This document shows, piece after piece, positions 1,509-11,956 of a stretch of 64,000 nucleotides of DNA; the stretch's first letter is position 1; each line of letters opens with the position of its first letter. This DNA is from Amantichitinum ursilacus (GTDB taxonomy: Bacteria > Pseudomonadota > Gammaproteobacteria > Burkholderiales > Chitinibacteraceae): contig NZ_LAQT01000003.1 of assembly GCF_001294205.1 (NCBI RefSeq), positions 310,001 through 374,000 on the forward strand, given 5' to 3'. The notes beneath the pieces were generated by a model. The model was not told the DNA's origin. It worked only from the letters and a program-made list of their open reading frames with translations, and did no database searches. The position numbers were made by a program, and so were the translations under genes.

Positions 1509-4205
1509 ATGAATCATGCAACCAGGCAGCAAGCCGGCTTTGTGCAAGTACGCGGCGCGCGCGAACACAATCTACGCGACGTGAATGTCGATATCCCGCG
1601 CGATGCGCTGGTGGTGTTTACCGGCGTATCGGGCTCGGGCAAATCGTCGCTGGCGTTTGGCACGCTGTATGCCGAGGCGCAACGGCGCTATCTGGAATCG
1701 GTAGCGCCGTATGCGCGACGTTTGATTGACCAGGCAGGCGTACCCGATGTTGACCAGATCGATGGCCTGCCGCCTGCGGTGGCGCTGCAACAGCAACGCG
1801 GCACGCCGACGGCGCGCTCGTCGGTGGGCACGGTGACGCAGATTTCCAGTTCTTTGCGCATGCTGTATTCGCGCACCGGGCGTTACCCCGCCGACCAGCC
1901 CATGTTGTATGCCGAAGATTTTTCGCCCAACACGCCGCAGGGCGCATGCCCGCAATGCCATGGTCTGGGCCGGATTTATGAAGTGACCGAGCAATCGATG
2001 GTGCCCGACCCGTCACTGACCATCCGCGAAAAAGCCGTCGCCGCCTGGCCCAGCGCGTGGCAAGGGCAAAACCTGCGCGACATCCTGACCACGCTGGGCC
2101 ACGACATCGACGTGCCGTGGCGCGATCTGCCGCAAGCCACGCGCGACTGGATACTGTTTACCGACGAAACGCCGACGGTGCCGGTATATGCCGGCTTTAA
2201 CATCGCCGAGGTCAAACGCGCCATCAAACAGCAACAGCAGCCCAGTTATATGGGCACGTTTACCGGCGCGCGGCGCTATGTGTTGCACACCTTTGCCACT
2301 AGCCAGAGCGCGATGATGAAAAAGCGCGTGGCGCAATTCATGGTGGGCAGCGTCTGCCCCTTGTGCGAAGGCAAACGGCTCAAGCGCGAGGCGCTGGCGG
2401 TGACGTTTGCCGGTTACGACATCGGCGCCTTGCAGCAGATGCCGCTCAAACAACTGGCCGAGGTATTGCGCCCGGCCGCACAGGGCCGGGGTGAAGGCGG
2501 CCAGGCGCAGGACGCCGCGCCCACGCGCAGCAAACAACAGCATCAACGCCATATCGCGGAACGCGTGGCGGCGGGCGGTTCGGCGCACACTGCCGCGCCC
2601 GATGTGCGCCGCACCGCGCATGATTCGCAAGAAAAGGTGATCGCCGCGCAACGCCTGGCGCAAGCCTTGCTGGGCAAGCTGGAAACGCTGATTGGCCTGG
2701 GCTTGGGCTACCTGGCGCTGGACCGCGCTACGCCGACCTTATCGCCGGGCGAGATGCAGCGTTTGCGCCTGGCCACCCAACTGGGCTCGCAATTGTTTGG
2801 CGTGGTGTATGTGCTGGATGAACCGTCCGCGGGCTTGCATCCGGCCGATGGCGAGGCCTTGCTGAGCGCCTTGCAACGGCTTAAAGCCGAAGGCAATTCG
2901 GTGTTTGTGGTGGAACACGATATCGCCACCATGCGCCAGGCCGACTGGCTGGTGGATGTGGGGCCTGCTGCGGGCGAGCTAGGCGGCCAAGTGTTATACA
3001 GCGGCCCGCCCGCGGGCCTGGCGCAGATCGAAAATTCGCAAACACGGCGCTATTTGTTTGACGGCGGCCGTGGCATCAGCCGCGCGGTGCGCGAGCCCGA
3101 AGCATGGCTGCGGCTGGAACAGATCGAACGCAACAATCTGCAAAACGTGGCGGCGGCGTTTCCGTTGGGCTGTTTGACCACGGTGACGGGCGTGTCGGGC
3201 TCGGGCAAATCCAGCCTGGTCACGCAGGCCTTGCTGCAACTGGTGGCGGCGCATCTGGGTAGCTCAATCGATGAGACGGACGACGCCGACGAGCATGCGC
3301 CATCACCGCCTGTTAGCGATGAAGACAGCCGCGATGTCGCCGGCGTGCCGACGCTGCCGGAGGCGCGCGCCAGTGGCCGTATCGTGGCGGGCATGGAGCA
3401 GATCAAGCGCCTGGTGCAGGTGGACCAGAAACCGATCGGGCGCACGCCACGCTCCAATTTAGCCACTTATACCGGCTTGTTCGACGCCGTTCGCAAGCTG
3501 TTTGCCGCGACGCCGGCCGCGCGCAAACATCGCTACGATGCCGGGCGCTTTTCCTTCAACGTGGCAAAAGGCCGTTGCGAAACCTGCGAAGGCGAAGGTT
3601 TTGTGATGGTGGAACTGCTGTTTTTGCCCAGCGTATATTCGCCATGCCCCACCTGCCACGGCACGCGCTATAACGCCGATACGCTGGCGATCAAATGGCA
3701 CGATCTGAGCATCGCCGATGTGCTGGGGCTGACGGTGGATGCGGCCTGCGCCGCCTTTGCCGACGAGCCCGCCGTGCTGCGGCCGTTGCAGGTGCTGCGC
3801 GATATTGGCCTGGGTTACTTGCGGCTGGGGCAACCGGCCACCGAGCTATCGGGCGGCGAAGCGCAACGCATCAAACTGGCCACCGAACTGCAACGCGCGG
3901 GCAGCCAGCGCGGTTCCACTTTGTATGTGCTGGACGAACCGACCACCGGGCTGCATCCGTCCGATGTAGATCGGCTGTTGGCGCAGCTGGACGCACTGGT
4001 GCAGGCGGGCAATACGGTGGTGCTGGTCGAGCACGATATGCGCGTAGTGGCGGCCAGCGACTGGGTGATCGACATGGGGCCGGGCGCGGGCGACGAAGGC
4101 GGGCAGATTGTGGCCAGCGGCACGCCCGCAGAGGTGGCAAAAAGCCGCGCCAGCCGCACCGCGCCATGGCTGGCAGAGGCGTTGCAACGGCCGACCGCGC
4201 CGTAA
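1509..4205 (+). CDS. UvrA-like ABC ATPase (UvrA2 type, lacks UvrB-binding domain)
   Basis: This 898-residue protein has the tandem ABC layout of UvrA: Walker A motifs at 39-47 and 561-569, signatures LSPGE (about 411) and LSGGE (about 780), and zinc-type Cys pairs at 147/150, 283/286 and around 690 (CETCEG, CPTCHG). After the first Walker A the chain goes from RTGRYP straight to the CPQCHGLG finger. The roughly 100-residue UvrB-binding insertion and the first Cys pair of the first finger of true UvrA are therefore absent. A Gln/Ala-rich linker (about 322-390) and an acidic linker (about 590-615) are further oddities. UvrA2 paralogues are linked to tolerance of DNA-damaging compounds and some antibiotics rather than to core excision repair. 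The start has AGGG upstream. Confidence 0.88.
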
Positions 4206-5645: not shown

Positions 5646-6758
5646 TTAACCCGGCGCGGCATGGCGGTGCTGATGCGCAAAATCAGCCATAAAGCTGACC
5701 AGCGTATCCACCGCCGCCAACGTCACCGCGTTGTACAGCGACGCCCGCAAACCACCCACCGACCGATGTCCGCCCAGGCCGCTCAGACCTGCGGCTTCGG
5801 CGCTGCGCAAAAACTGCTGTTCCAGCTCGGGCGTGGCCAGGTTAAACGACACGTTCATCAAAGAGCGATCTTCGCGGCGTGCGCGGCCGCGATAAAAGCC
5901 GTTGCTGGCGTCCAGTTGCGCGTACACGCGCTGCGCTTTTTGCTGGTTGATCTGGTCCATCGCGCTCAGGCTGCCGATGTCTTGCTTTAGCCAGCGCGTT
6001 ACCAACAGCATGGTGTAGATGGCAAACACCGGCGGCGTATTAAAGTTGGAACGTGCGTTGGCTTGCGCGCGGTAATCCAGAAAGCCCGGCAGATTGTCGG
6101 GCACGCGTTCGATGATCTCGTCGCGCAGCAACACCACCGTCACGCCGGCCGGGCCGATGTTTTTCTGCGCATGCGCGTAGATCAGCGCATAGCGTTCCGC
6201 CGGGCACGGCCGCGACAGAAAATCGGACGACATATCGCAAATACGCGGCACGCTATCGAGGCCCGGCACGTACTGAAACTGCATGCCTTCCACCGTTTCG
6301 TTGGAGGCGTAATGCAGATAGGGCGCGTCGGGCGCGCTGGCCAGTTCGTAGGCCTGCGGCAGCCGTTGATATTGCTCGGGCTGGCCGTTCCACAACACGC
6401 GCACCGGGCCTTCACGGCGTGCTTCGGGGATGGCCTTTTGGCTCCAGTAACCGGTTTGCAGATATTCAGCGGGCGCGCTTACGCCGCGCAACAAGGTCAT
6501 CGGAATCATCGAAAACTGCTGCGTGGCCCCGCCTTGCAAAAACAGCACCTGGTAGCCGCGTTGTATCCCGAGCAAGCCGAGGATATTGGCCTCCAGCTCA
6601 TCCACCACCTCGGCAAACCACTTCGAGCGATGGCTGATGCCCAGCACCGACAAGCCGGTGACGGGTTCGCGGATCAGCGCTTCGGATAATTGCTGCAGCA
6701 CGGTCTCGGGCAATGCGCCCGGCCCGCCAGAAAAATTGAGTGCGTTACGCGGGTTCAT
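5646..6758 (-). CDS. serC: SerC-family phosphoserine aminotransferase (likely paralogue)
   Basis: This 370-residue PLP enzyme matches the SerC family along its length: NFSGGPGALP at the start, ISHRSK, the glycine-rich FLQGGATQQF, SNETVEGM, the PLP lysine in AQKNIGPAG, FNTPPVFAIY and GHRSVGGLRASLYNA near the end. SerC makes 3-phosphoserine from 3-phosphohydroxypyruvate and glutamate. The start at 6758 is fixed by the ATGA overlap with the upstream ATP-grasp gene, which implies translational coupling. The usual betaproteobacterial neighbours of serC (gyrA, pheA, hisC, aroA) are absent, and NFSGGP replaces the usual NFSAGP. A second, specialised SerC copy is therefore plausible, though the classical reaction cannot be excluded. 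Confidence 0.85.
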   Translation of the reverse strand: MNPRNALNFSGGPGALPETVLQQLSEALIREPVTGLSVLGISHRSKWFAEVVDELEANILGLLGIQRGYQVLFLQGGATQQFSMIPMTLLRGVSAPAEYLQTGYWSQKAIPEARREGPVRVLWNGQPEQYQRLPQAYELASAPDAPYLHYASNETVEGMQFQYVPGLDSVPRICDMSSDFLSRPCPAERYALIYAHAQKNIGPAGVTVVLLRDEIIERVPDNLPGFLDYRAQANARSNFNTPPVFAIYTMLLVTRWLKQDIGSLSAMDQINQQKAQRVYAQLDASNGFYRGRARREDRSLMNVSFNLATPELEQQFLRSAEAAGLSGLGGHRSVGGLRASLYNAVTLAAVDTLVSFMADFAHQHRHAAPG

Positions 6759-7978
6759 CAATCGCCCTTGCCGCTCAGTTGCAACAGATAGTGGCGCACC
6801 GCATCGCGCGCCAGGGCAATGCAATCCTGCTTGTGCGGAAACAGCGTGTCGCTGTCCATTGCGTGGATGACCATGGCGTGGTCGATCTCGAAGATCAGCA
6901 ATTCGCCGCTGGGCATTTCGGCGCAATCAATGGCCAGATAATCGAGGCCGGAGCGCTGGAACAGCTCGTGCCAGACGCCCGCATGGCGTTGCGCAAAGGC
7001 GGCGAAATTGCGCATCCATTGCGCTTCCTCGGCGCGTTTGGCGGCTTCTTCATACATGCCGGCATTGACGTAATGGATCATCCAGTCGCTGGAAATCGCC
7101 ATATGGCAGGCAAACGGCTCGCCGCGCAGCAACAGCACGCGATATTTGCGGAACTGGCCGTCGGCGCTGCGGTAATCCATAAACGGCGCGATATAGAACT
7201 CGGCTTGCGGCGCTTGCGCCAGATATGCGGCCAGGCCGGCATCGTCGGCAATGCGCGCCAGACCGTGGCCCCCGTGCGAATCCAGCGGTCGCACAATCAG
7301 CGGGTAATGCAGATCGGGGCAGACCGAATGCACGCCGGATGCGTACAACTGCACGTCGGTGCGCGCCAGTTGCCAACACGGCGGCATCACCAGCCCTGGC
7401 AAATCCTGCAGCAGCGCGCTGGCGGTGTCGCGCGCGATATTGGGGATGTTTTGCGGTGGATTGATGACGGGGCGCGGCCAGCCCGCCAACTCGATCGACA
7501 GCCGCGCCAGGGTGTCGCGCGTTTCGGCGGATTCGCCGATTGCCACAAACACCACATCGTGATCGGGCACGCTGGCGGGCATCGGCGCGTCGGGGCGCAG
7601 ATAGCAAAACAACAGCTCGACATCGGTAAATTCCAGCAAGCAATCCAGCGGGGTATTTACGCTCAGCGGGCCGGGCGCGGCAAAGATCAGCACGGTAACG
7701 CGGGCGGGCTGCAGGGCGGCCGGGCGGCGGAACAGCGTTTGTGCGGCCAGGCCTTCTGCCTGAATCGACAAGCCCAGTTCTTCACGGCCAGCCGCCATCA
7801 TGGCGGTGGACAGATTGATCCAGCGTTCGGCCTGTTCGGGCGCGCGGTGTACCGCTTGCAAGGCCACGTCGGCCAGCGCGTTCATATCTTCGCCGGCAAT
7901 GCTGGCGCGCAAAAACGGCGCAAGCGCCACAAAGCCTTCTTCACCGGTAAACGGCGTGATGGGCTCAAGTTGTGACAT
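6758..7978 (-). CDS. ATP-grasp fold protein of unknown function
   Basis: This 406-residue protein begins MSQLEPITPF; the upstream extension in frame has no ribosome site and overlaps the regulator gene. Residues 20-85 form helical TPR-like repeats (ERWINLSTAMMAAGREELG). The C-terminal two thirds look like an ATP-grasp ligase: PLIVRPLDSHGGHGLARI (nucleotide loop), the FRKYRVLLLRG strand and ELLIFEIDHAM in place of the usual metal-binding end motif. ATP-grasp enzymes activate a carboxylate as an acyl phosphate and join it to an amine or thiol. The substrate is unknown. It is coupled by ATGA overlap to a SerC-like aminotransferase, so an aminotransfer-then-ligation sequence is the simplest guess. 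The MmyB-type regulator ends 49 bases upstream on the same strand. Confidence 0.75.
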   Translation of the reverse strand: MSQLEPITPFTGEEGFVALAPFLRASIAGEDMNALADVALQAVHRAPEQAERWINLSTAMMAAGREELGLSIQAEGLAAQTLFRRPAALQPARVTVLIFAAPGPLSVNTPLDCLLEFTDVELLFCYLRPDAPMPASVPDHDVVFVAIGESAETRDTLARLSIELAGWPRPVINPPQNIPNIARDTASALLQDLPGLVMPPCWQLARTDVQLYASGVHSVCPDLHYPLIVRPLDSHGGHGLARIADDAGLAAYLAQAPQAEFYIAPFMDYRSADGQFRKYRVLLLRGEPFACHMAISSDWMIHYVNAGMYEEAAKRAEEAQWMRNFAAFAQRHAGVWHELFQRSGLDYLAIDCAEMPSGELLIFEIDHAMVIHAMDSDTLFPHKQDCIALARDAVRHYLLQLSGKGD

Positions 7979-8027
7979 AGCCTTTTTCCCCTGTTGTTGG
8001 TCTTGTGTTGGCGCGCTGGGCGGCAGT

Positions 8028-8873
8028 TTAGCGGGTGGCCGGCGGCGCGGGTACGTCGGCTTGCGCCAGCATGCCTTGCACCACGGCCTGATCCTGCGCG
8101 GTGCTGGGCGTATACACCACCATCTGCAACTGCGGTTGGCCTTCCACCGCAAATGCGGCGTAATCCAGATGCAGCGCGCCTGCCGCCGGGTGCTGAATGT
8201 GTTTGGTGCCCTGGCCATGCTGTTCCAGCTGCTGGTCTTGCCACCACAGGCCAAATTCAGGATAGCTGGCGCTCAGTTCTTCAACCAGGGCGTGCACATG
8301 CGCATTGGCGCCGTTGCGGGTGACCTCGGCGCGGAAAGTGGCCACCGACGACCGCGCAACGGCGGCCCAGTTGGGCAAACGCTGACGTACTTCGGGCTCG
8401 CTGAACATCAGCCGCAGTAGATTGCGCCGGTCGGGCGGAATCTGGCCGTAATCGGTCAGCACCACGGCGGCGGCGCGGTTCCACGCCACCAGATTCCACT
8501 CCGGCGTTTTGATAAAGGCGGGGCTGAACACCATCGCATCCAGCACGCGTTGCAGTTGCGGCGTGATGGTGTGATCGGGCTGGTAGCGCACTTGCGGTGG
8601 CCGGTTTTGCGCCAGCAAAAACAGATGCTCGCGTTCAACCTCGGACAGCGCCAGGGCGCGCGCCAGTCGTTCCAGCACTTCGGCCGACGGCGGCCCGCCA
8701 CGGCCTTGTTCCAGCGCCGTGTACCACGTGGTGCTGACATGCGCGCGCTGCGCCACTTCTTCGCGGCGCAAACCGGGCGTGCGTCGGCGCGTCATCGATA
8801 CGCCCACATGCGCGGCATCCAGCCGGCTACGGCGATCTTTTAAAAAAACACCAAGCGCATTCTGTTCGGGCAT
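8028..8873 (-). CDS. Helix-turn-helix regulator, MmyB family
   Basis: This 281-residue protein has an N-terminal XRE-type helix-turn-helix (LRREEVAQRAHVSTTWYTAL, about 35-60) after the family signature RRRTPGLRREE, and a C-terminal PAS-like MmyB ligand domain (EWNLVAWNRAA, LLRLMFSEPEVR, GTKHIQHPAAGAL). Members bind fatty-acid-like ligands and often control an adjacent dehydrogenase. The ATG at 8873 is chosen because AGGA lies eight bases upstream; an ATG at 8882 would touch it. It is divergent from the SDR gene at 8982 and in line with the ATP-grasp/SerC genes, so it could control both sides. Confidence 0.88.
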   Translation of the reverse strand: MPEQNALGVFLKDRRSRLDAAHVGVSMTRRRTPGLRREEVAQRAHVSTTWYTALEQGRGGPPSAEVLERLARALALSEVEREHLFLLAQNRPPQVRYQPDHTITPQLQRVLDAMVFSPAFIKTPEWNLVAWNRAAAVVLTDYGQIPPDRRNLLRLMFSEPEVRQRLPNWAAVARSSVATFRAEVTRNGANAHVHALVEELSASYPEFGLWWQDQQLEQHGQGTKHIQHPAAGALHLDYAAFAVEGQPQLQMVVYTPSTAQDQAVVQGMLAQADVPAPPATR

Positions 8874-8981
8874 CGTCTTCATCCTGTTACTGCCAGTTCC
8901 AGTATAACGTCGCGGCTGTTACCGCCGCCGACACGCGCCTAATCTGCACCGCACGGATTCAGCCATTCAGGGAGAACAGCG

Positions 8982-9902
8982 ATGCGAGTATTTGTAACGG
9001 GCGCCACCGGCTTTATCGGCGCGGTGATTGTGCAGGAATTGCAGCAAGCCGGGCATCAGGTACTGGGCCTGGCGCGGTCTGACGAAGCCGCGGCCCGGTT
9101 GCAGGCGGCAGGGGTCGAGGCGCACCGCGGCGCGCTGGATGATCTGGATAGCCTGCAGCGCGGCGCCAGCGCGGCCGATGGCGTGATCCACACCGCGTTT
9201 AAACACGACTTTTTCCGCGGCCCGCCGGAGGACTTTGCCAGCGGCTGGCAAGCGGCGGCCGCAGCGGACCAGGCGGCGATTGCGGCGCTGGGACAAGCGT
9301 TGGCGGGCAGCGGCAAGCCGTTGGTGATGACCTCAGGTACCTTGCTGATGACGCCCGGCCAGCTGGCGCTGGAAACCGATGCGCCCGCGACCAACGCGGT
9401 GGCGACAATCCGGTTGCCGTCCGAGCAAACCGCGCGTGCGCTGGCGCAGCAAGGCGTGCGCAGCAGCATCGTGCGGCTGTCGCCCACCGTGCATGGCGAG
9501 GGTGATTCCGGCTTTGTGCCGGGCCTGATCGCCGTGGCGCGGCAGCATGGCGTATCGGCCTATGTGGGCGCGGGCGACAACCGCTGGCCCGCCATCCACC
9601 GGCTGGACGCCGCGCGCTTGTTCCGGCTGGCGCTGGAGCAGGCCCCGGCGGGGACGGCTTTGCATGGCGCGGCGGAAGAGGGCGTGCGTACGCGGGATAT
9701 CGCCGCAGCCATCGGCCGCCAGCTGGGCTTGCCAGTGGCCTCGATTGCGCCAGAACACGCGGCTGCGCACTTCGGTTGGCTGGCCGCGATGATCGGCATC
9801 GATAATCCGACCTCCAGCGAGCTGACGCGTCGGCTGGTGGGTTGGACGCCGCAACAGCCCGCGCTGCTGGCGGATATCGAAAGCCCGGCCTACTTCGGCT
9901 GA
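8982..9902 (+). CDS. NAD(P)-dependent SDR (epimerase/dehydratase family)
   Basis: This 306-residue protein opens MRVFVTGATGFIGAVIV, the Rossmann glycine motif of extended short-chain dehydrogenases. The middle shows a substrate-binding MTSGTLLM and LPSEQTAR, and later IHRLDAARLFRLAL, typical of NAD-dependent epimerase-like proteins. The usual YxxxK is not evident, so the catalytic step is uncertain. GGGAG lies ahead of the ATG. The divergent MmyB-type regulator is the classic partner of such genes, so ligand-controlled expression is likely. Confidence 0.85.
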   Translation: MRVFVTGATGFIGAVIVQELQQAGHQVLGLARSDEAAARLQAAGVEAHRGALDDLDSLQRGASAADGVIHTAFKHDFFRGPPEDFASGWQAAAAADQAAIAALGQALAGSGKPLVMTSGTLLMTPGQLALETDAPATNAVATIRLPSEQTARALAQQGVRSSIVRLSPTVHGEGDSGFVPGLIAVARQHGVSAYVGAGDNRWPAIHRLDAARLFRLALEQAPAGTALHGAAEEGVRTRDIAAAIGRQLGLPVASIAPEHAAAHFGWLAAMIGIDNPTSSELTRRLVGWTPQQPALLADIESPAYFG

Positions 9903-9982: not shown

Positions 9983-11956
9983 TTATTGCGCGGTCGGCGT
10001 ATATGGCTTGAAGAAATCGCTGCCCGCCCACGGTGGCGTTACAAAGTTGATGGCCGGGCCGCGGATGTAGCTGGACGCCTGGTCGACATAGCCATTGCCC
10101 TTGTACACGGTGGTGTACGGCCACGGGTAAATCGGGCGCGAACTCAGCACGTGTTCAATCTGGCCACCCCCCTCGGGTGGGCCGCCCGCGCCCTCTTGCG
10201 GCGGTTTGCCGCCCATCGGCGGCTTGCCGGATGGCGGCTGCCCGCCACCCATGCCACCACCGCCCATGCCACCACCACCCATACCACCGCCACCCATACC
10301 ACCGCCACCCATACCACCGCCACCGCCCATGCCACCCGGAGGACCGCCGCGATGACCGCCCTTGCCGCCTTTGCCCTCGCCACCAGGGCCATCGCCGCCC
10401 ATGCCAAAGCCGTTCTGCTCGGTCCGGTTGGCCACCACGGCGTCGGGCGCGATGCCGGCTTCTACCCAGTTCAGCATCGGTGTCAGCAAATCCACCTGGT
10501 TGGCGCCTTCGCCGCCCCCGCAGTGATACATGCCGGGGAACAGATAGAGGCGCGCAAACTCATCGGTCGCTGTCTTGCCCAGTTGCTGCTGCAGCGCGCT
10601 GTAATACGCGATGCTGTTCAGCGGCGAGATATGCGGGTCCGACCAGCCATGCCAGATGATCAGGCGGCCACCCGCCTGGGCAAATGCCGACAGATCGGGA
10701 TTGGTGGCGTCATACAAAGGATGGCGCGCACGCAGGCGATTAAAGCTGGCTACGCTAAACGTCATGTCGGCCAACTGCTGGATCGGCTGCTCGGCAAAGG
10801 CCAGATGCTGCAGCACTTCCAGCGACACCGTCGCGCTCATGGTGCCGTCGTCTTGCGTCTGCGGCACATACACGCCCGCCCATGACAACTCGGAGCCATA
10901 CATGGGCTGGCCCGCCGTCAAACGCACGCCGGTTTTAGCGTCGCGCGGGCCATCGTAAAACTTGCGCACCACGCCCACTTCGGCGGCGCTCAGGCAGGCG
11001 CTTTGGTCTTGGGTGGCGGCCGGGCACTGCAGCGTGGCCGGATCAAAATGGCAGGCCAGCGGATTGCTGATCAGCCCGTCGGCCTGGCCATCGAGCTTGT
11101 CGCAGGCCGCCAACACGGCTTTGTGCAGCAAGGGCAAACGCGGCGCGAGCAAGATGGCTTTGCCGTTGGCGTCCAGATTGGCGCGCGCTTGCCACGCATG
11201 GTAGATCGCGTTTTGCGTCAGAAAATTAAGCGCCGGGGCGCCCGCCAGAATGCCGTTGAAATCCTCGGGATAACGTTGCGCTTCCATCAGCGCTTCGCGG
11301 CCGCCGTCGGAGCAACCATCAAAATAGGCATAGGCTTCTTTCTGGCCATAAAACCGGCTGAGCAGCGCCTTGCCGGTGAGCGCCGTCAAATGCTGGGCAC
11401 GATAGGCAAAGTCGGCGCGCTTTTGCGGATCTTCGCCAAACGCGGTGTCATTGCCGGTATGGCCCATATCGGTGGCGGCGGTCACAAAGCCACCGGTCTG
11501 AAACGGCACACAACCCTGCGCCACGCTGGCCTGGCCGCTGATATTGCCGCACAAGCCACCACAACCCAGTTGCAGATAACGTTGCGTCCAGCTTTGCGTG
11601 GGCAGGTTGACCTCAAATTTGATCGACGGGGCCAGCACGCCTTCCACCTTGCACACCTGCACCTTCTGCCGCGTGGTCTGCGTGCTGGCTGAAGTAATCC
11701 GGCTGCCCGCGCCACCAATGGCGGTCAGATCAAAACTGGCCAGATCGGCGCAATCGCGCTGCGCTTTCACCACGCGCAAGACGGGGGCGGCCAGTGCGGT
11801 GGCGGCTTGGCCGGGCGCCGCGCCTTCGGCTGCGGGTGGCAGTGGCGGTGGGCCAGCAGGTTCGGCGTGAGCGCTGATTGCGCCACACAGCATAAGCGCC
11901 AGCGCCTGGCTGCCCACGGCAAGCCAGCGTCGCAAATCGGGCCGATGAAGGTTCAT
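9983..11956 (-). CDS. Tannase/feruloyl esterase family protein with a Gly/Met-rich insert
   Basis: This 657-residue protein starts with a signal peptide ending near AHA (residues 1-31), so it is exported. The tannase-fold triad is visible: Cys215-Ser216 in GCSDGGRE, Asp440 in WHGWSDPHI and His478-Cys479 in MYHCGGG, where the two cysteines usually pair in a disulfide. The family hydrolyses gallate or hydroxycinnamate esters from plant polymers, or terephthalate esters. The native end SSRPIYPWPYTTVYKGNG (about 605-622) is split from the catalytic core by about 80 inserted residues (518-599), very rich in Gly, Met, Pro and Lys, including five-residue GGGGM units. It is convergent with the SDR gene. 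Confidence 0.88.
   Translation of the reverse strand: MNLHRPDLRRWLAVGSQALALMLCGAISAHAEPAGPPPLPPAAEGAAPGQAATALAAPVLRVVKAQRDCADLASFDLTAIGGAGSRITSASTQTTRQKVQVCKVEGVLAPSIKFEVNLPTQSWTQRYLQLGCGGLCGNISGQASVAQGCVPFQTGGFVTAATDMGHTGNDTAFGEDPQKRADFAYRAQHLTALTGKALLSRFYGQKEAYAYFDGCSDGGREALMEAQRYPEDFNGILAGAPALNFLTQNAIYHAWQARANLDANGKAILLAPRLPLLHKAVLAACDKLDGQADGLISNPLACHFDPATLQCPAATQDQSACLSAAEVGVVRKFYDGPRDAKTGVRLTAGQPMYGSELSWAGVYVPQTQDDGTMSATVSLEVLQHLAFAEQPIQQLADMTFSVASFNRLRARHPLYDATNPDLSAFAQAGGRLIIWHGWSDPHISPLNSIAYYSALQQQLGKTATDEFARLYLFPGMYHCGGGEGANQVDLLTPMLNWVEAGIAPDAVVANRTEQNGFGMGGDGPGGEGKGGKGGHRGGPPGGMGGGGGMGGGGMGGGGMGGGGMGGGGMGGGQPPSGKPPMGGKPPQEGAGGPPEGGGQIEHVLSSRPIYPWPYTTVYKGNGYVDQASSYIRGPAINFVTPPWAGSDFFKPYTPTAQ
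10241..10336 (-). repeat. In-frame 15-bp tandem repeat in the tannase gene
   Basis: About six near-identical 15-bp units, read on the plus strand as CATACCACCGCCACC with small variations, encode GGGGM repeats with Met at about residues 543, 549, 554, 559, 564 and 569. Because the unit is a multiple of three, copy-number change would keep the frame. Confidence 0.85.

Follow-up and report, generated by a model that had tools for sequence, protein, structure and literature searches.

A conserved gene pair of an RimK/LysX-like ATP-grasp protein and a SerC paralogue in Amantichitinum ursilacus, with a link to flagella

Introduction

Several ATP-grasp enzymes build amide bonds on proteins: RimK is the ribosomal S6 alpha-L-glutamate ligase, LysX and ArgX are amino-group carrier protein ligases, and all three couple amino acids to carboxyl groups of proteins. 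Flagellin, in turn, is a protein for which glycosylation and lysine methylation are the main modifications known. In Caulobacter, FlmG is the TPR-glycosyltransferase of the flagellins, and its TPR part binds them (PMC7591256). In Shewanella oneidensis, deletion of the ATP-grasp protein SfmE shifts the mass of flagellin (PMC3765264).

Here we describe an ATP-grasp protein and a SerC paralogue (SerC2) encoded side by side in a 64,000-nucleotide stretch of the Amantichitinum ursilacus genome (contig NZ_LAQT01000003.1, positions 310,001 to 374,000), which we call the window and whose own numbering we use throughout. The ligase shares with RimK, LysX and ArgX the overall ATP-grasp fold of its predicted model, but it alone has a TPR-like front part, a PLP-enzyme partner gene and a linkage to flagella. 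Our preferred reading, held tentatively and judged somewhat less likely than not, is that the pair would be a two-enzyme, flagellum-linked modification unit, in which a PLP enzyme supplies a flagellum-directed amide ligase. Amide ligases of the ATP-grasp type are known, and so is flagellin modification; their combination is new as far as an open-access search reached. Iyer et al., writing on ATP-grasp amidoligases in 2009, may mention this ligase family. The search, which covered open-access literature, returned no published account of the pair or of the related trio described below, and a paper on Bradyrhizobium flagellar systems (PMC6406911), as far as its text was searched, does not mention these enzymes.

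Results

Layout of the locus

The three genes named by the first-pass annotation are all present on the minus strand. The ATP-grasp gene (6758..7978) encodes 406 amino acids and is followed by SerC2 (5646..6758), a 370-residue phosphoserine-transaminase paralogue of the NF009112/PRK12462 clade. Ahead of them lies an MmyB-like (MLTR) regulator (8028..8882; PF17765, 2e-50), whose stop falls, just as first described, 49 bases before the ATP-grasp ATG at 7978. The junction of the pair had been given as a four-base ATGA overlap, which is the commonest form in related loci; here the ATP-grasp stop and the SerC2 ATG (6758) in fact share a single base, TGATG, within ...GAT TGA TGA ACC.... Divergent from the regulator, on the plus strand, is an NAD-dependent epimerase/SDR gene (8982..9902; PF01370).

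Two further genes of the window deserve a mention in their own right. A UvrA-like protein of 898 amino acids (1509-4205) is below the usual UvrA length and looks by eye like the second-copy type, and a tannase/esterase-like protein (9983-11956) carries a long Gly/Met-rich low-complexity insert with GGMGGGG repeats.

Conservation of the pair

The pair is maintained in many proteobacteria. Among named genomes, a scan turned up relatives of the ligase in at least 535 stretches, and the best 80 of these were surveyed for the pair. In 74 of these 80 best loci the gene immediately downstream of the ligase is this SerC paralogue, an arrangement that is thus far from chance; a contig end cuts four of the other six, and two (L078 and L095) seem to be without a nearby SerC2. 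The junction across related loci is usually tight, with a short or negative gap, and this together with the conserved order supports the view that the two genes form a working unit.

Beyond the pair, the neighbourhood differs greatly from locus to locus, so that the pair appears self-contained. A larger conserved operon was considered and rejected, as no neighbour beyond the pair recurs broadly; those that do recur are limited to lineages, such as a U32 peptidase in Gallionellaceae, a GMC-type oxidoreductase in Rhodoferax, and FlaG in some. The regulator likewise drops out of the unit: it stands beside none of the 77-78 other pairs, and none of its 19 own relatives stands beside a pair. It is a chance neighbour, and the ligand control by MmyB that had been proposed for a two-step route falls with it, leaving the other elements of that proposal (a coupled unit, a SerC paralogue and an amino-acid:carboxylate ligase fold) in place. 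The divergent SDR gene was also discarded as a member, being absent beside related regulators. Phage relatives were looked for and none was found. In Andreprevotia lacus (L048), a gene with a HEFAH motif is divergent from the pair.

The ATP-grasp ligase

Compared with Pfam and NCBIfam, the ligase stays below every cut-off. Its best match is the curated rimK_fam model (TIGR00768), which it fails by a wide distance at 17.5 bits against 143.4, and it is only about 10-18% identical to RimK, LysX and ArgX. The AlphaFold (AF2) model nevertheless has a pLDDT of 92.7 and a pTM of 0.91, and from about residue 92 onwards the solved folds nearest to the prediction are RimK, ArgX and LysX, at Z 17-18 (VIA-align). 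Searched with a profile of the ligase family, solved structures gave LysX (3vpd) as the best match, at E 6.6e-5; a profile comparison with one single RimK sequence gave no match. Alignment, model and fold search agree in placing pre-ATP-grasp and ATP-grasp domains at residues of about 94-406 (6761..7699, minus strand), and they support a predicted fold that is that of amino-acid:carboxylate ligases.

Within the family alignment R230, K278, R280, D351 and E364 are invariant. Reading the motifs against the RimK sequence makes D351, E364 and D366 the candidate metal ligands; the third of these positions is N in RimK, whereas it is D here and A in some relatives, a departure that weighs against a RimK-like, flagellum-linked ligase.

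The front of the protein (residues 18-80; 7739..7927, minus strand) is modelled as TPR-like helical hairpins, with predicted helices at 20-27, 32-45, 50-62 and 66-79. TPR-fold profiles match this short form weakly, which again counts against our preferred reading. Long homologues, on the other hand, have genuine TPR arrays in front of this ligase domain, and these arrays suggest a protein partner. In Methylophilus (L068:6092-6991 and L132:3388-4287) the ligase has about 300 extra N-terminal residues that are weakly zinc-metallopeptidase-like.

The SerC2 paralogue

SerC2 passes the NF009112 model with 583.9 bits (cut-off 563) and NF003764 with 427 against 253, and it scores 412 on TIGR01364, under that model's 443.6. 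It is about 44% identical to canonical SerC (TIGR01364/PRK05355), and in a quick tree the two fall on either side of a fully supported branch, making SerC2 a clade of its own. In the same genome the canonical gene lies on another contig (C33) in the order gyrA-serC-pheA, in line with the earlier remark that the copy in the window lacks the usual serC neighbours; the partner of SerC2 is the ATP-grasp gene, where gyrA and pheA are the canonical partners.

Residues are numbered here from the ATG, and a TTG sits one codon earlier. The PLP-, substrate-phosphate- and carboxylate-binding residues, whose roles in PSAT-type active sites have been described (PMC10031235), are the same as in SerC and invariant in 75 SerC2 sequences. 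They include the PLP-binding lysine K199 in an AQKN motif (codon at 6162..6164, minus strand), H43, R44, H331 and R332 for the phosphate, and R338 for the carboxylate. With all of them kept, a phosphorylated alpha-amino acid, perhaps phosphoserine, is still the likely product. What sets the clade apart from canonical SerC is a group of fixed changes near the active site (G40, I41, W47, Y104, H196, V244 and G327), among them H196, near K199, at a position that is G in canonical SerC.

An intact active site and a passed phosphoserine-transaminase model could also mean that SerC2 simply duplicates or replaces the usual phosphoserine transaminase and that the ATP-grasp gene has an unrelated role. 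We tested 20 genomes for this distribution: SerC2 and a canonical copy occur together in 15, one (G116) has a single, canonical copy, and one (G125), a genome just 85% complete, showed SerC2 only. In the other three, all of one genus (G247, G305 and G333), SerC2 is the sole SerC/PSAT-type gene, so that it may also serve serine synthesis there. These three genomes favour a replacement role, lend indirect support to a putative 3-phosphohydroxypyruvate/glutamate transaminase activity, and count against a flagellum-linked unit, since SerC2 may do no more than provide phosphoserine from which serine is made. Yet the adjacency to the ligase kept in most of the best loci, the changes fixed beside the active site, and the canonical serC found both in the host and in the other complete main-type pair-bearing genomes tested, which answers a check put forward with the first-pass annotation, make a mere replacement highly improbable. 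The loci of the same three genomes (L210, L209 and L211, respectively for G247, G305 and G333) have the sole SerC2 adjoining a long TPR-ATP-grasp protein.

A second arrangement with a PLP decarboxylase

Missed by the first-pass annotation, as was the flagellar link, is a second arrangement of the same ligase. In other lineages it stands beside an unnamed PLP-type protein (PLPV) and a group II PLP decarboxylase (PF00282), which has DABA and aromatic amino acid decarboxylases among its relatives. The decarboxylase and the ligase are fused in one frame in one locus (L130). The PLPV protein has the SGTD, DACQ and SK motifs of PLP enzymes; searches of Pfam, NCBIfam and solved structures gave no match. 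A decarboxylated product has no alpha-carboxylate, and the PLP product is thus more likely to be the amine partner in this arrangement. In the ligase tree most SerC-type ligases form one clade, but SerC2 is also found beside separate ligase branches (L016/L131, L135 and L290), which suggests that the coupling is functional.

The link to flagella

The ligase family and flagellin occur together. In a sample of 399 genomes of the order, flagellin is present in 66 of the 68 genomes that have the family, compared with 207 of the 331 that lack it (Fisher p 3e-10; p 0.002 at genus level); of the two exceptions, G261 has a remote homologue and G228 is a fragmented genome. Across 397 genomes sampled from the phylum, all 33 with the family have flagellin, as do 297 of the 364 others (p 0.003). 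The family itself is patchy, with the ligase in only 3 of 36 other members of the host's taxonomic family, so flagella do not require it.

Flagellar genes also lie close by, within about 8 kb of 10 of 30 loci of the second type (p 8e-5) and of 12 of 83 of the SerC type (p 0.009), against 0 of 40 random, spaced 15-kb windows from 8 genomes, in tests that ignore kinship between loci that are not independent of one another. FliA matches in L045, L055 and L081 were left out as general sigma-factor cross-hits, and L191 was left out since it had been picked with a nearby flagellin already known. The clearest cases sit within flagellar operons and, with ATPg for the ligase and PLPdec for the decarboxylase, are FlgE-FlgK-FlgL-x-PLPV-ATPg-PLPdec-FlbT-flagellins (L172 and L173), flagellin-PLPdec-ATPg-flagellin (L184), PLPdec-ATPg-PLPV-x-FliC-FlaG-FliD-FliS (L277) and, for the SerC type, FliLMNOPQR-ATPg-SerC2 (L051).

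Against a flagellum-linked unit stand the 71 of 83 SerC-type loci with no flagellar genes near, and the host itself, which has the pair on contig C3 and flagellin on C9; the co-occurrence, moreover, could partly reflect lifestyle or kinship. The pair might instead make a free small molecule, a dipeptide or amino-acid conjugate, as the first-pass annotation proposed, and the flagellar co-occurrence would then stem from shared genomic islands and a motile way of life. Free amino acids are common substrates of ATP-grasp ligases, D-Ala-D-Ala ligases also rank high for the ligase model in Foldseek, and many SerC-type loci stand alone among unrelated neighbours. The neighbourhoods of related loci, however, hold no recurring exporter, resistance or other biosynthesis genes, and the link to flagella is seen with either arrangement and in different orders. 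This favours a flagellar target over a free two-part metabolite and leaves a small-molecule product fairly unlikely.

A sugar donor is a further candidate: the pair might build or decorate one for flagellin glycosylation, placing the amide on a nucleotide sugar or glycan and not directly on the protein. Glycosylation genes are frequent in flagellin loci, and the L184 flagellin locus contains a TPR-glycosyltransferase 41 (FlmG-like) protein (L184:12425-14500); L028 has a NeuB-like gene by eye, L172 an extra gene between flgL and the trio, and SfmE is another ATP-grasp protein that affects flagellin modification in Shewanella (PMC3765264). But sugar-pathway genes are absent beside most pairs, and the TPR arrays of the long homologues speak for a protein partner; we consider this alternative unlikely.

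Some further features of these loci were noted along the way. The gene between FlgL and the trio in the Bradyrhizobium-like flagellin operon (L172:12114-12947) encodes a 277-aa protein with no match in Pfam. In L141 (5052-10352) two TPR-ATP-grasp homologues flank a short gene, just upstream of flhB-flhA and an FlhF-like gene. The host's own flagellin locus (L314; G000:C9:268000-287000) shows, by eye, genes that resemble aminotransferases and glycosyltransferases upstream of FliC and FliD. Flagellin C-termini were inspected and showed no special residue.

Discussion

Under the reading of the pair as a flagellum-linked modification unit, SerC2 would act first, its product being O-phosphoserine or some closely related phosphorylated amino acid. 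At the cost of ATP, the ligase would then link the amine of this product through an amide bond to a carboxylate, most likely one on a flagellar protein and probably on flagellin. Flagellin is the likeliest acceptor because the acceptors of RimK and LysX are protein carboxylates and the TPR part of FlmG brings its enzyme to flagellin. By analogy with FlmG, the TPR-like front part may recruit the flagellar target, and in the second arrangement the decarboxylase and PLPV may provide this ligase with another amine. What the analysis shows directly is the linkage of the genes, the separate SerC2 clade, the kept residues, the predicted ligase fold and the association with flagellar genes, whereas the chemistry, the sequence of the two steps and the choice of flagellin as target are inferred.

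The resemblance to FlmG is one of working principle: a TPR front joined to a modifying enzyme and linked to flagellin genes, with an ATP-grasp domain in place of the glycosyltransferase domain, and with flagellin binding established for FlmG alone. SfmE is comparable as an ATP-grasp protein that affects flagellin, and it differs in gene context, belonging to the sugar-acid operon sfmABCDE.

Taken further, the two arrangements could represent a previously undescribed post-translational modification of flagellin, in which TPR-guided ATP-grasp ligases join an amine from a dedicated PLP enzyme to carboxylates of flagellar proteins, the amine being phosphoserine-like in the SerC2 arrangement and decarboxylated in the other. 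We regard this joint reading as possible but doubtful. If it is true, a different chemistry would act on the flagellar filament, carried out by ligases of a family that hundreds of genomes encode, and two alternative PLP modules would feed one flagellum-tied family; this would bear on motility, on phage binding and on recognition by plant or animal hosts. The SerC2 clade would also gain a role that can be tested; its present annotation simply as phosphoserine transaminase misleads metabolic reconstructions.
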